A stretch of DNA of 64,000 nucleotides from Marinobacter sp. ATCH36. GTDB lineage: Bacteria > Pseudomonadota > Gammaproteobacteria > Pseudomonadales > Oleiphilaceae. Where the stretch lies: assembly GCF_023555055.1 (NCBI RefSeq), contig NZ_JAMJPL010000002.1, positions 434,001-498,000 on the forward strand, in the 5' to 3' direction. The notes beneath the pieces were generated by a model that was not told the origin of the DNA, searched no databases, and worked only from the letters and a program-made list of their open reading frames with translations. The position numbers and the translations under genes were made by a program. Of this stretch, positions 17,133 through 54,200 are shown one piece after another; position 1 is the first letter of the stretch, and each line of letters opens with the position of its first letter.

Positions 17133-18503
17133 TCAGGATGACAGGGAAAGTGCCAGTGCGTCCAGATCTCCGGAAACCTTGTCAATCTCCTCACCGAGAA
17201 TGGTCACATCGCCCTCAGTTAGCCCCAGGGATGTCGCAAGAGCAGGCAGTTCGTCCGGGTTGAACTCGTCACCAATTCCCTTCTCTTTGAGTAACCCGTT
17301 AGCAAGCTGGACCATGAGCACATAGCTTTCATGCTCACCGTGGTAGCCCTGCTGCTGATGCATGCCGGCAGCCTTGACCACCGGATCCGGTAACTCCCAA
17401 AGCCGATGCAGAATACCGCCAATGGCACCATGACCGACGGCCAGCATCTGCTGACTGTCGTCGGCACCGAATACCTGCTGCTCCAGTGCATGCATACTGG
17501 CTTCCGGGTTGGCTTCGCGAAGGGTATTGAGCTCGTTGAATTCCTGTGGAAACAGGTGGCCGATGAGTAGCAGGCCGAAGTTATGCAGCAAACCACAAAG
17601 ATAGGCCAGCCCTTTGTCTGCATTGCACTTGGGCGCCATGCGCTGACACAGGAAAGCGCAGTACAGTGAATGTCGCCAGAACTGGTCCATCCCCAACATG
17701 CCCTGACGCGGCACTTCGAAAGCACGAACCGAGGCAATCCCCAGTGCTATATGTGCAACACGATCGAAACCCAGAACACGGGTTACCCCTTCCTGAACGG
17801 AGTTGATCTGGCCAGGGTAGTTGAAAAGCGCTGAACGCGCATAACGCATGATTTGCGCCGTCAGGCTGGGATCAAACTCAATAAGCTCCGCCAGTTCCCG
17901 GGCAGTGGCTTCGGTGTTGGCAGTCAGCCTGAGGATTCGCAGCGCCAGTGCCGGCATGGGCGGCAGGCGATACAGCTTCTGGAGTTTATCCGCCACTTCT
18001 TCCAGCGTCAGCGCGTCCCGTTGGCCGTTATTCTCTCCGCGAATCACCAGATGCCCCTGAGTAGCGTCGGCCAGTGCCCGCGCCAGCGAGGTCCGATCAA
18101 GTTCCAGCAGGGTGTTATCGGTACCACAGCACATAAGTGTGCGCGGATAACCCAGAACATCCTGATCGACCAGCACAGGAACCTCATAGGCGGCTCCGAC
18201 CGGAGGCTGAAAACCCGGATCACAATCCGCAAACAACCGCGCGGACTGGCGAGCGGTCAGTGGTTGCAAGCGACGACCTGTCAGCTTGTGGACAAGATCC
18301 ATATCCAGACTGGTGTTGTAACCATGAACCGCCATGACAACACCATTTATATCGATCAATGGTGTTGCGCGGATAAACTCGTCCTGAGAGCGTCCTGATG
18401 CCATCACCGCCGCATCAAAGTTGAGCACCTGGTCAATGGGCACTGCCTTGTATGCAATCCCCTGACGGATCAGAAAACGTTCCAGCCTTGCCGCTAACGC
18501 CAC
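17133..18503 (-). CDS. YbaK-like deacylase domain fused to HDOD domain
   Basis: 456 residues. Residues about 1-150 resemble the YbaK/ProXp family of aminoacyl-tRNA deacylases, including a segment around DQVLNFDAAVMASG. Residues about 165-420 are an HDOD domain (LPPMPALALRILRL; FWRHSLYCAFLCQRMA; YLCGLLHNFGLLLIGHLFP). The GTG start at 18503 has AGGAG 7 nt upstream. It lies 36 bp after ppc and upstream of adk, the same setting as in pseudomonads, so it is a conserved core gene and not a recent insertion. Whether the deacylase part is active is not clear; a regulatory role combining tRNA or amino-acid sensing with HDOD signalling is inference. Confidence 0.8.
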   Translation of the reverse strand: MALAARLERFLIRQGIAYKAVPIDQVLNFDAAVMASGRSQDEFIRATPLIDINGVVMAVHGYNTSLDMDLVHKLTGRRLQPLTARQSARLFADCDPGFQPPVGAAYEVPVLVDQDVLGYPRTLMCCGTDNTLLELDRTSLARALADATQGHLVIRGENNGQRDALTLEEVADKLQKLYRLPPMPALALRILRLTANTEATARELAELIEFDPSLTAQIMRYARSALFNYPGQINSVQEGVTRVLGFDRVAHIALGIASVRAFEVPRQGMLGMDQFWRHSLYCAFLCQRMAPKCNADKGLAYLCGLLHNFGLLLIGHLFPQEFNELNTLREANPEASMHALEQQVFGADDSQQMLAVGHGAIGGILHRLWELPDPVVKAAGMHQQQGYHGEHESYVLMVQLANGLLKEKGIGDEFNPDELPALATSLGLTEGDVTILGEEIDKVSGDLDALALSLSS

Positions 18504-48447: not shown

Positions 48448-48463
48448 GTTTTGGGGGCTGGCC

Positions 48464-48550
48464 AGGGGGGCTGGGGTATTTTTTCTTTGGGAAAAGAACT
48501 CGCTGCGCTCAGACACCTTTTCCTGGCAGAAAAAATACCCCAGCCCCCCT
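48464..48550 (+). repeat. Nested inverted-repeat element, copy A
   Basis: A perfect 23-bp stem (48464-48486 with 48528-48550, from AGGGGGGCTGGGG outward-in to TTTTTTCT) encloses a 41-nt centre with its own 7-bp stem (GGAAAAG 48490-48496 with CTTTTCC 48517-48523). It begins 17 bp after the stop of the HDOD gene and lies before the convergent ung gene. The centre is 38/41 identical to the reverse complement of the element at 52333-52425, and both are followed by CGATC(G/A)AAC. It may act as a terminator or mRNA 3' end structure, or be a dispersed palindromic repeat. Confidence 0.88.
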
Positions 48551-48594
48551 GTCCGATCGAACTTTTTTCGGGCTTCCCTTCGCCACCCGCTGTG

Positions 48595-50925: not shown

Positions 50926-52021
50926 TTACAGCGCCATCTTCAGGCTGGCTTCGATAAACTTGTCGATGTCACCATCCAGCACCGCCTGGGTGTTGCTGGT
51001 TTCCACCTTGGTGCGCAAGTCCTTGATACGGCCGTCATCCAGCACGTAGGAACGGATCTGGCTACCCCAGCCAATATCCGCCTTGGCATCCTCGGCCCTC
51101 TGTTTCTCGGCGGTACGCTCCTGCATCTCGCGTTCGTACAGCTTTGCCTTGAGCTGTTGCATGGCCTTGTCCCTGTTCTGATGCTGGCTTCGGCCAGCCT
51201 GACAGGCGACGACAATGCCGGTGGGGTTGTGGGTCAGACGCACCGCGGACTCCGTCCGGTTAACGTGCTGACCACCAGCACCTGAGGCGCGGTAAACATC
51301 GACCCGCAGATCAGACGGGTCGATCTCGATTTCGAAGCTGTCATCCACTTCCGGTGATACAAACACGGACGAGAAAGACGTATGGCGACGGTTGCCGGAG
51401 TCAAACGGCGATTTGCGCACCAGCCGATGCACACCGGTTTCCGTGCGCAACCACCCGAAGGCATACTCACCCTGAACGTGAACAGTGGCACTCTTGATGC
51501 CTGCCACATCGCCTTCCTGCAATTCGACGATCTCGGCCTTGAACCCACGATTCTCAGCCCAGCGCAAATACATGCGCAGCAGCATGTTGGCCCAGTCCTG
51601 GGCTTCGGTGCCGCCGGAACCGGCCTGGATGTCCAGGTAAGCGTTGTTGCTGTCCATCTCGCCTGAGAACATACGACGGAACTCGAGTTTCTCGAGTTCC
51701 TTGTCGAGACTTGCCAGGTCGGCTTCAATCTCGGCGACCGTGCCCTCGTCCTCTTCCTCGGCCGCAATTTCCAACAGGCCATCAGCGTCGTCCAGGCCGG
51801 AGGTAAGGTTGTCAATCGTGCGGACAACCAGTTCAAGATCGGACCGCTCCTTGCCCAGCGCCTGGGCCCGGTCGGGGTCTTCCCATACCGAGGGTACTTC
51901 CAGTTCGCGCTCTACTTCGGTCAGTCTTTCACTACGCTGATCGTAGTCAAAGATACCCCCTGAGCGCTTCAGTGCGCTCCCGAAGGTCTTTTATCTTCGT
52001 AACAATGGGATTGATTTCCAT
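50926..52021 (-). CDS. prfB: Peptide chain release factor 2, programmed +1 frameshift
   Basis: Release factor for UAA and UGA. Translation starts at ATG 52021, and codon 25 is an in-frame TGA (51949-51947). The surrounding AGGGGGTATCTTTGAC is the classic autoregulatory frameshift site: an internal Shine-Dalgarno, slippery CTT and poor-context stop. A +1 shift joins 24 codons to the 340 downstream, about 364 residues. The SPF recognition motif ([11 protein letters not shown]) and the GGQ motif ([13 protein letters not shown]) are intact. It is not a pseudogene. Confidence 0.97.
51942..51960 (-). promoter_or_regulatory. prfB programmed frameshift signal
   Basis: On the minus strand AGGGGG (internal Shine-Dalgarno) lies 3 nt before CTT-TGA-C; the tRNA at CTT slips +1 to TTT when RF2 is scarce. 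Spacing and sequence match the conserved bacterial signal. Confidence 0.95.
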
Positions 52022-52128
52022 GAAATCCTTACTCGCTCTCAGAAAATGGATGCGAACAAAATCAGACGCGAGATTCTACCGGAAATCTGTTCCTAAATCA
52101 GCCGGTGGTTTCTTTGAGTGGGTGCATG

Positions 52129-52234
52129 CATTGGTCGGTGAGGCCCTTCCAGGATACGCGGTGAATACGTCCCTGTACGCTCGACAAAAACATCCATGTT
52201 TTTGACGATCCTGAAAGGGCCTCACCGACCAATG
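52129..52234. repeat. Long palindrome with 27-bp arms, upstream of prfB
   Basis: CATTGGTCGGTGAGGCCCTT at the start of the left arm (52129-52155) pairs with the right arm (52208-52234) at 26 of 27 positions. Inside, CAAAAACAT (52185-52193) and ATGTTTTTG (52196-52204) form a second 9-bp hairpin with a 2-nt loop, flanked by TCG/CGA. The 52-nt centre also contains GCGGTGAATACGTCCCTGTA, which looks like a repeated-element core. It ends about 108 bp upstream of the prfB start. No ORF fits. Confidence 0.85.
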
Positions 52235-52247
52235 CCCAGAGCCCACA

Positions 52248-52318
52248 GTTAACGTCAGAACCGTTGGATTAGAGGCACCGCCTCGTAATCCAACAATGTC
52301 CGGTCCTACGGCGTTAAC
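52248..52318. repeat. Nested palindrome with GTTGGATTA core
   Basis: Outer arms GTTAACG (52248-52254) and CGTTAAC (52312-52318) frame an inner stem: GTTGGATTAGAGGC (52263-52276) pairs with GCCTCGTAATCCAAC (52280-52294), with one bulged G and a 3-nt loop. GTTGGATTA...TAATCCAAC palindromes are, to my knowledge, recurrent intergenic repeats in several gammaproteobacteria. Confidence 0.8.
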
Positions 52319-52332
52319 TCTCAGGTTTGATC

Positions 52333-52425
52333 GGGCCTGGGGTGGGGGTATCTTTTCTGCCAGAAAAAGGTGTCTGAGCGAAGCGAGTTCTTTTTCCAAA
52401 GAAAAGATACCCCCACCCCGGGCCC
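52333..52425 (-). repeat. Nested inverted-repeat element, copy B
   Basis: Arms 52333-52358 and 52400-52425 pair at 25 of 26 positions; inside, GAAAAAG (52363-52369) pairs with CTTTTTC (52390-52396). On the minus strand the 41-nt centre matches copy A at 48464-48550 in 38 positions, and two of the three differences are a paired exchange within the inner stem. It starts 41 bp after the recJ stop, in the same sense relative to recJ as copy A is to the HDOD gene. Confidence 0.88.
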
Positions 52426-52466
52426 GGCCCGCCAAGGCCGAAGCCCTGGGCGCCAGACTCAAAGCC

Positions 52467-54200
52467 TCAGGCCAAAGGCTCCAGATAATCCACCAGAAGC
52501 TGCAGGTTAGTACGCCCGCGAAAAGTATTGACATCAGGCTTGTACACCACCCGCGCCCCGGTTCTGGTGTAGTCGGGCACTTCCGGCCCGGTGTTGAAGG
52601 CAATGCCGTCGATGATGGCACCGCCCTCTTCCAGCTGGAGAACCAGTTTCAGATGGTTCTCACCAACGATTCGCTGGCTGACCACACGGAAGTTGCCGTC
52701 GAACAGCGGCTCCGGGAAATGCTGCCCCCAGGGGCCGGCGCGTTTCAGCAGGGTCGCGGTTTCCAGGTGTAGTTCGTCCGGGCTCAAGGGGCCGTCGGTG
52801 GTGATGGCGGCTTCAAGGTCTTCCGCCCGGAGGGTATCGCGTACGGCTCTGTCGAAGGCCTCGCTGAAGACGTCCAGATCGCTGCGGGCCAGGCTCATGC
52901 CGGCAGCCATGGCGTGGCCGCCGTACTTTTTCATCATGCCAGGGTGGCGGGCATCGACCACAGCAAGCACATCACGGATATGCAGCCCGGGGATGGAACG
53001 GGCGGAGCCCTTGATATCCTCGCCATTATCATCCGGGGCAAAAGCGATGGTCGGGCGGTGCGTCTGTTCGCGGATGCGGGCGGCCAGTATTCCGATCACA
53101 CCCTGGTGCCAGTCGGTATCAAACAGCGCCAGCCCCCAGGGCAAACCTTCGATATCCAGTGACATGGAGGCCAGCAGATCCTGTGCCTGGGTTTTCATGT
53201 CTTTTTCGATGGTGCGCCGTTCGCGGTTGAAGGTGTCCAGCTCGCGAGCCAGTCGCTGGGCTTCCTCACGGCTGTCCGCCACCAAGCAGGCGATACCCAC
53301 GCTCATGTCGTCCAGGCGGCCGGCGGCGTTAAGGCGGGGGCCGACCACAAAACCCAGATCAGTGGAGCTGATTTCGCTATGATCGCGCCCAGCCACTTCC
53401 AGCAGCGCCAGGATACCCGGCCGGGCTTCGCCCTGACGGATGCGGCGCAGGCCCTGTTCCACGAAAATGCGGTTGTTGTGGTCCAGTGGTACTACGTCGG
53501 CCACCGTGCCGAGTGCGACCAGATCCAGAAGGTTGCCCAGGTTCGGCTGCGGATCTGGCAGCAAACCCTGCTCCCGGAGATGTTTACGCAAGGCCGTCAG
53601 CACATAGAACATCACACCCACACCCGCCGCGTTCTTGCTCAGGAACGGGCAACCAGGCTGGTTCGGATTCACAATCGCATCAGCGTCAGGCAAGATTTCC
53701 CCGGCCAGGTGATGGTCGGTGACAACCACTTTGATACCCAACTCCCGCGCAGCGCTGACCCCTTCAACCGCGGAAATACCGTTGTCCACGGTAATCATCA
53801 GGTCTGGAAGGGAATCTTCTTCCTGCAGCCGATGAATGATACCGGGCGTCAGTCCGTAGCCATCGGAAAAACGGCTGGGCACGCGGAAATCGATGTCGTT
53901 CAGCCCCAACATGCCCAGGCCCAGCATGGCCACAGCGGTGCTGGTGGCGCCGTCGGCATCAAAGTCACCCAGAACCAGCACCCGCTGCTGACTGGTAATC
54001 GCCTCAGTCAGCAGAGATACCGCGCGGTCAATTCCCCGGAGTTCCATGGGAGAGGCCAGGTGCTTCAATGAATAGCTGAGCTGGTCATCGGAGGTGACGC
54101 CACGGGCTGCGTAAAGGCGACGCAGCAGTGGGGGCAGGTTGTTACCCCAGTCCGGGCTGGTTTCCAGGCTGGGGCGACGCAGGATTTTTTTCGGTGTCAT
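52467..54200 (-). CDS. recJ: Single-stranded-DNA-specific exonuclease RecJ
   Basis: 5'-3' ssDNA exonuclease in recombination and mismatch repair. DHH-family motifs: DFDADGATSTAVAML, VTDHHLAGE and GPRLNAAGRLDD. 577 residues, the usual length. It starts 5 bp after thrC, so hom-thrC-recJ is probably one transcript, which would end in the repeat-rich gap downstream. Confidence 0.96.
   Translation of the reverse strand: MTPKKILRRPSLETSPDWGNNLPPLLRRLYAARGVTSDDQLSYSLKHLASPMELRGIDRAVSLLTEAITSQQRVLVLGDFDADGATSTAVAMLGLGMLGLNDIDFRVPSRFSDGYGLTPGIIHRLQEEDSLPDLMITVDNGISAVEGVSAARELGIKVVVTDHHLAGEILPDADAIVNPNQPGCPFLSKNAAGVGVMFYVLTALRKHLREQGLLPDPQPNLGNLLDLVALGTVADVVPLDHNNRIFVEQGLRRIRQGEARPGILALLEVAGRDHSEISSTDLGFVVGPRLNAAGRLDDMSVGIACLVADSREEAQRLARELDTFNRERRTIEKDMKTQAQDLLASMSLDIEGLPWGLALFDTDWHQGVIGILAARIREQTHRPTIAFAPDDNGEDIKGSARSIPGLHIRDVLAVVDARHPGMMKKYGGHAMAAGMSLARSDLDVFSEAFDRAVRDTLRAEDLEAAITTDGPLSPDELHLETATLLKRAGPWGQHFPEPLFDGNFRVVSQRIVGENHLKLVLQLEEGGAIIDGIAFNTGPEVPDYTRTGARVVYKPDVNTFRGRTNLQLLVDYLEPLA

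Follow-up and report, generated by a model that had tools for sequence, protein, structure and literature searches.

The window analysed here is a 64-kb stretch (64,000 nucleotides) of the 4.29-Mb genome of Marinobacter sp. ATCH36, whose nearest relatives are Marinobacter. On its minus strand, the gene order is recJ, prfB, lysS. The upstream gene recJ (52467-54200, minus strand) ends with a stop codon at 52467-52469, and prfB (50926-52021, minus strand), which contains a programmed frameshift, begins at about 52021, a start assigned by way of ATGGAAATCAATCC, a conserved motif. Three palindromes, E1, E2 and E3, occupy the gap between recJ and prfB (about 52022-52466), and a conserved prfB promoter lies inside the gap downstream of them. 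All three lie where a preliminary description had located them, and the sole correction concerns the arm length of E1, which is 28 nt and not 27. When the window was scanned for inverted repeats (arms no shorter than 26 nt, at most 2 mismatches, loop 30-80), three places were recovered, namely E1, E3 and a second copy of E3 (48453-48560, minus strand), and six Markov-randomised windows contained no inverted repeat of that size. E2 on its own, with arms of 8-9 nt, stands out less from chance, but its homology identifies it as a REP. The three palindromes are thus real, far beyond chance, and they represent separate families, so that the preliminary description was correct in calling them unrelated.

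The corresponding gap was compared across 30 Marinobacter relatives, in which it was found to contain E3 alone, E1 alone, E3 with E1, E3 with a REP, all three, or none. No palindrome is present in four relatives (L050, L052, L053 and L056), whose gap is clean and measures 97 bp, and mere scraps of an arm are left in L044 and L058. In the ATCH36 genome itself, the 331-bp interval used as a query retrieved two separate dispersed sets of matches, one of E1 and one of E3, and the full 300-bp interval occurs a single time. The preliminary description had suggested either one composite repeat or a site-specific hotspot for such repeats, and the presence of all three elements inside 300 bp, together with the resembling sets in the gaps of L032, L036 and L039, speaks for this. 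Nevertheless, the parts occur separately both in relatives and elsewhere in the genome and are all missing from four relatives, which refutes the single composite repeat and leaves the suggestion as a whole very improbable. Conservation of the 300 bp at this locus only, with no copies elsewhere, which the preliminary description had named as the contrary outcome, is not what is seen either. The varied combinations and the clean or scrap-containing gaps indicate that the gap accumulates elements one at a time, be it as a genuine hotspot or simply as an ordinary intergenic gap that tolerates them. Three interspersed palindrome families, independent of one another, are now represented in it.

E2 (52247-52319) is the remnant of a partly deleted GTAG-type REP pair (REPIN) between the outer arms AGTTAACG (52247-52254) and CGTTAACT (52312-52319). 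It retains one minus-strand REP hairpin, GTTGGATTA..TAATCCAAC (52263-52294; arms 52263-52271 and 52286-52294), and a leftover GTAGG tag, also on the minus strand, at 52305-52309. In relatives, GTAGGTYGGATTA..TAATCCRAC hairpins are arranged in inverted pairs at the recJ-prfB gap and genome-wide, and the gaps of L032, L036 and L039 carry such pairs intact. Strict REP copies numbered 115 in G010, 117 in G007 and 6 in the ATCH36 genome, with none in G071 and G052. A RAYT-like Y1 transposase of 173 aa with the same REPs on its flanks was found in G007, G016 and G010 (L419-L421). The family therefore shows the features of the GTAG-tagged REPs and REPINs that are associated with RAYT transposases (Di Nocera 2013, PMC3733652): a tagged short palindrome, many copies, inverted pairs and, in the relatives, a REP-flanked RAYT. 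A REP-flanked Y1 transposase (a REPtron of GTAG type) was not found in the ATCH36 genome, whose single Y1 transposase gene, at C21:285192, is a different one; this gene sits between two of the six remaining GTAGGTCGGATTA REPs (C21:280427 and C21:295522). Given the few copies and the lack of a REP-flanked RAYT-like gene in this genome, E2 is, as judged from its sequence, a damaged GTAG-type REP pair and a relic of deletion. An attC/integron-like reading of its GTTAAC ends was dropped when E2 proved to be a REP pair.

E3 (52332-52426, plus strand) has a 26-27-bp stem with arms at 52332-52358 and 52400-52426, and an inner GAGCGAAGCGAG mini-hairpin at 52376-52387. It belongs to a Marinobacter family with some 20-65 palindromes in each genome. 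In the family as a whole the stem is typically 26 bp and encloses an inner GAGCGNAGCGAG mini-hairpin. Matches to the E3 model, counts of which include some opposite-strand echoes, numbered 65 in the ATCH36 genome, 5-66 in the other relatives having E3 and 0 in G071. Wobble pairs fall on the plus strand in 35 cases versus 1. We also noted clusters of E3 at C21:186000-215000 of the ATCH36 genome, at G080:C11:712780-744446 and at G007:C1:2005000-2157000, in which many copies share the same orientation and lie about 1 kb apart. E3 was considered as the terminal repeat of a Y1 transposase, since in G007 and G016 a gene of this type has E3 on its flanks; REPs lie in between, so the gene belongs to the REPs. 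One E3 arm includes GGGGGTATCTTT, which matches 12 bases of the frameshift signal of prfB (51949-51960 of the window) exactly, probably by coincidence. A literature search by sequence and topic in open-access papers returned no earlier description of E3.

E1 (52128-52235) has its GGA-loop strand on the minus strand, sense to recJ-prfB, and consists of a 28-bp stem around a three-way-junction core. The arms, P1 (52128-52155) and P1' (52208-52235), have a sequence private to the locus, and P1' is the complement of P1 (28 nt, 96% complementary). The overall plan is P1 - P3 hairpin - CGAGC - P2 hairpin - ACxGCGT - P1', in which P3 (52181-52208, minus strand) presents CATGGATG at 52191-52198 with the loop ANGGAY, and the P2 loop, CAGGGACG, is located at 52168-52175 on the minus strand. 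Seventeen copies of the ATCH36 genome share a core of about 58 nt, whereas the 28-bp outer stem differs from copy to copy and yet remains complementary. Arms of different copies are only 37% identical, and the self-complementarity score within a copy is 23.4 versus 4.4 across copies. Covariation in the stem is strong: 164 cells had changed on both sides versus 43.8 in shuffles, 27 of the 28 stem pairs had changed on both sides, no shuffle attained the observed values, and the stem columns were 95.5% paired versus 36-46% when slid. Covarying pairs were also present in P3 (columns 3/22, 4/21 and 8/17). Sub-families vary in their inner stems and keep the plan, and stem length falls in a narrow range of 25-31 bp in most copies everywhere, which rules out insertion of E1 into existing hairpins.

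An E1 covariance model gave 93 matches at E <= 1e-6 in the ATCH36 genome, or about 86 distinct copies, and 13-132 matches in 13 relatives with none in G071, the per-genome counts including some opposite-strand echoes. In a genome scan covering the order and the class Gammaproteobacteria, a strict E1 pattern was found in at least 23 of 146 genomes of the order and at least 15 of 204 of the class, and the reversed control gave zero; E1 is patchy across Gammaproteobacteria. The 118 named E1 loci among the matches listed are nearly all gammaproteobacterial. The others come from a Nitratireductor MAG (L205), a record labelled Bacillus subtilis (L212) and unclassified proteobacterial MAGs (L203 and L215), and may be mis-binned or contaminated. 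With a Marinobacter core as query, no E1 was found on plasmids or on phages, and an enterobacterial query matched 14 plasmid records, 13 of them from Pantoea, and 5 E. coli records. The enterobacterial subtype is present on large Pantoea plasmids (Pantoea agglomerans NZ_CP016890.1 and others), and is rare on E. coli plasmids and one chromosome (wastewater records NZ_CP022154.1 and NZ_CP058751.1). Two structural variants were observed: five E1-like units in tandem with a spacing of about 227 bp at G162:C1:94444-95396 (L110), and an E1 orthologue of G010 (L102, about 17330-17470) with about 81 extra nt within P2 and the remaining core kept. Against Rfam, no family scored above the gathering score and sub-threshold matches were chance ones only; with open-access papers searched by sequence and topic, no earlier description of E1 was found, and in that literature the family appears to have gone unnoticed.

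The families of E1 form an age series. Copies within the young families of G134 and G318 agree at 94-95% of arm positions and 97-98% of core positions; in G336 and G331 the arms are 73-75% identical, down to the 37% of Marinobacter. The 14 copies of G134 share discrete ends with TA on their flanks, and such shared ends have been lost in old families. This series indicates that the palindrome spreads whole and that the arms then drift in complementary steps. At orthologous loci, mean divergence was 0.24 for the arms, 0.17 for the flank and 0.06 for the core, and changes in the arms comprised 331 paired Watson-Crick double changes versus 72 single and 19 other changes. The core can also invert: at L065 it is inverted between identical arms in one species, and at another locus one species has an inverted core with other arms, and one cleanly lacks the palindrome. 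Copying of the arms from the target at insertion was ruled out, since young families share arms and neither arm is present at the single clean empty site. In G318 (L288-L300), E1 lies inside a larger repeat with the outer inverted repeats TTTCAATGAGGCCAGCAGCCTGTCGGACTT, and in L296 and L297 this outer portion is inverted relative to the core. Template switching can keep stems perfect and invert spacers (PMC8794818; PMC8604942). Replication template switching is the probable process behind both the arm drift and the core flips of E1.

On the minus strand of E1, P3 and P2 both read C-A-N-G-G-A-Y-G. In the covariance-model set of the ATCH36 genome, CANGGANG was present in both hairpins of 91 of 94 copies. 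Among 108 fuzzy-matched cores, almost no variation was seen at C, A, G, G, A or the closing G, and the N columns were free, the N of P2 being the most variable of all. The most stringent comparison was between copies at orthologous loci of different species, for which changes were counted as minimum changes and not on a tree: N had changed in 19 of 99 cases, A/G/G/A in 5 of 396 and the closing C/G in 0 of 198 (Fisher p = 2e-10); the per-site change was 0.10 in flanking DNA and 0.11 in the arms. These three tests are unconditioned and stem from Marinobacter-derived models or loci, and loop counts by pattern across Gammaproteobacteria are conditioned on that pattern. The N column was not linked to other variable columns in an inter-copy linkage check; inter-copy gene conversion could contribute to conservation of the core.

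Constraint of this kind on the loops of fixed copies is difficult to account for unless some protein reads ANGGA, and CsrA/RsmA is the known protein that does so. The csrA gene was present in 11 of 11 genomes tested, and the CsrA of ATCH36 is intact (65 aa). G134 carries 9 csrA genes alongside its young E1 copies. The motif ANGGAN is bound by CsrA/RsmA (PMC3791407), the SELEX consensus of CsrA is RUACARGGAUGU with six-nt loops and a variable N, and one dimer can bridge two sites that are 10-63 nt apart (PMC7652899). By sequence, E1 agrees with these properties in having an ANGGA hexaloop with C-G closure and a free N in both hairpins, in a genome encoding CsrA/RsmA, and its two sites lie within the bridging distance (20 nt between the two GGA motifs in the window). 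The freedom of N in both loops matches Csr specificity exactly and therefore counts for this assignment.

Several observations count against it. In nearly all E1 folds the P3 hexaloop forms, whereas P2 competes with an alternative fold, and in the window the P2 fold is the less stable of the two by 1.6 kcal/mol. P3 is longer than the SELEX hairpins of CsrA, mostly of 4 base pairs or fewer (PMC7652899). Genome G071 has csrA and lacks E1. In its favour, on the other hand, is the strand bias of the imperfect pairs in the E1 stems: the GGA strand carries G-U where its complement has A-C, and the opposite assignment is far less frequent (52:8 in Marinobacter; 66:7 in an independent gammaproteobacterial set). 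This bias indicates that one strand folds under selection, and it does not distinguish RNA from single-stranded DNA; together with the loop conservation, it also fits single-stranded DNA read by some protein.

Genomic context was assessed with simple longest-ORF gene calls, by which 38 of the 89 E1 copies of the ATCH36 genome (43%) lie between convergent genes compared with 40 of 213 background gaps (19%; p = 4e-5), and only 6 of 89 lie between divergent genes, a depletion. E3 likewise favours convergent-gene gaps. Blocking of exonucleases and limiting of convergent read-through have been proposed for REPs, and E1 and E3 could similarly be 3'-end hairpins whose loops are incidental. The position preference is independent of orientation and shared by both families, and the E1 stems are very stable (-47 to -87 kcal/mol), all of which speaks for such a role. 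We nevertheless consider it improbable, since sequence-invariant ANGGA loops with a free N and a strand-specific wobble bias would be left unexplained.

In tandem gene contexts of the ATCH36 genome, the GGA strand was sense in 22 and antisense in 23 cases (13:22 in a wider E1 set), and this absence of sense bias is a further point against a Csr site. In close E1 pairs, with copies 60-500 bp apart, the GGA strands point outward in 32 of 32 inverted pairs; examples are L322, L324, L326, L374, L382 and L385, and gammaproteobacterial loci including L124, L141 and L189. GWTAWC (GTTAAC, GATATC and similar) occurs just outside the stem, 3' of E1+ copies of the ATCH36 genome, 13 times versus 0.9 expected. 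Judged by eye from the positions in G016, E1 orientation showed no clear pattern relative to replication.

Outward pairing and the lack of sense bias are unexplained by a simple 3'-UTR model, which keeps a DNA-level reading alive: E1 would be a MITE-like parasitic palindrome, and a putative transposase would recognise its two ANGGA hairpins as single-stranded DNA, so that they are conserved through mobility and not through host function. Strictly outward close pairs are expected of a two-ended unit, young families share arms and have discrete TA-flanked ends in G134, the number of model matches per genome ranges from 0 to >100, and the wobble bias would also arise for hairpins of single-stranded DNA. 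However, where a locus is fixed in several species, ANGGA stays constant and the flank and arms change, a pattern not required by mobility on its own, and the free N of both loops is the very specificity of Csr proteins. E1 was not on phages and, for the Marinobacter query, not on plasmids. Moreover, no E1 motif was found within about 1.5 kb of 31 Y1 loci from 14 genomes, the exception being one weak model match (L389) in G134, at a distance of about 440 bp from a gene of IS200 type, so that a tie between E1 and a Y1 transposase is not supported by the fetched loci. We therefore regard conservation through mobility alone as unlikely, though a serious alternative.

Judging from loop sequence and constraint, it is about an even proposition that E1 was formerly a mobile palindrome and is now retained, at scattered places, as a double docking site for CsrA/RsmA. 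E1 would have spread as a small non-autonomous mobile palindrome and been retained because its minus-strand RNA offers a paired docking site, in which a helix of about 28 bp leads into a three-way junction presenting two C-ANGGAY-G hexaloops about 20 nt apart, fit for one CsrA dimer. The RNA could be made by read-through from a neighbouring 3' end, here that of recJ. The stem would only have to stay perfectly paired, leaving its sequence free to drift as template switching at replication transfers changes between the arms and at times flips the core. A perfectly paired stem of 25-31 bp would, speculatively, also suit RNase III. It is more tentative, and somewhat short of even, that a mobile palindrome has supplied some gammaproteobacterial genomes with up to about 100 double docking sites, on private, drifting and occasionally flipping stems, that act jointly; the roughly 90 copies of ATCH36 might then together form a diffuse CsrA sponge or a network of 3'-UTR docking sites.

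If CsrA/RsmA binds E1, the Csr system has many unrecognised targets in addition to sponge sRNAs and 5' leaders, and a mobile element of the kind commonly written off as junk would have given rise to a regulatory network; if the RNAs are made, genomes carry about 100 scattered CsrA docking sites. Whatever its function, E1 provides palindromes of graded age in their natural setting (arm identity of 95%, 75% and 37% around a core that hardly varies), in which the upkeep of complementarity in long stems during replication could be measured. Work on this question has so far relied mostly on RNA genes and reporter quasipalindromes.

E1 shares features with several known kinds of element and differs from each. 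Like GTAG REPs and REPINs, it is intergenic, paired and present in many copies. GTAG and CGTC REPs are defined by a single 5-13-bp stem, a tag at one end and a short loop (PMC3733652), whereas in E1 an outer stem of 25-31 bp encloses a three-way junction with two 6-nt loops, and both the GTAG tag and an adjoining Y1 transposase are missing. Each CGTC REP is one hairpin of 8-9 bp whose loop has 4-5 nt, usually followed by a CCA tail, and most are from alphaproteobacteria (PMC3733652). The Marinobacter subtype of E1 shares with them a CGTC before P3, a palindromic nature and the lack of a known dedicated transposase, but differs in its 6-nt loops, two hairpins, outer 28-bp stem and almost exclusively gammaproteobacterial distribution. 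The TIR families of TIRYT transposases, for example in Stenotrophomonas maltophilia (PMC3733652), are likewise self-complementary repeats often found in close pairs. Such TIRs are paired around a Y1 transposase gene; in contrast, none of the 31 loci gave an E1 motif match, the fetched Y1 loci of S. maltophilia D457, SJTL3 and Sm46PAILV among them. MITEs are multi-copy, non-coding elements with terminal repeats in common and a duplicated target. With the MITEs ERIC, YPAL and NEMIS, E1 has in common that these are non-coding inverted repeats of about 110-140 bp near gene ends with RNA structure, and the TA at both ends in G134 is MITE-like; it differs in that arms are unshared among old copies, and neither a transposase nor similarity to ERIC or YPAL is established. 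Finally, the sponge RNAs CsrB, CsrC and RsmX/Y/Z have ANGGA-type hairpin loops in common with E1, which would bind CsrA/RsmA, and in both cases a genome contains several sites overall. A sponge sRNA unites many sites in one molecule, whereas E1 comprises about 90 dispersed two-site copies, each on a private stem.
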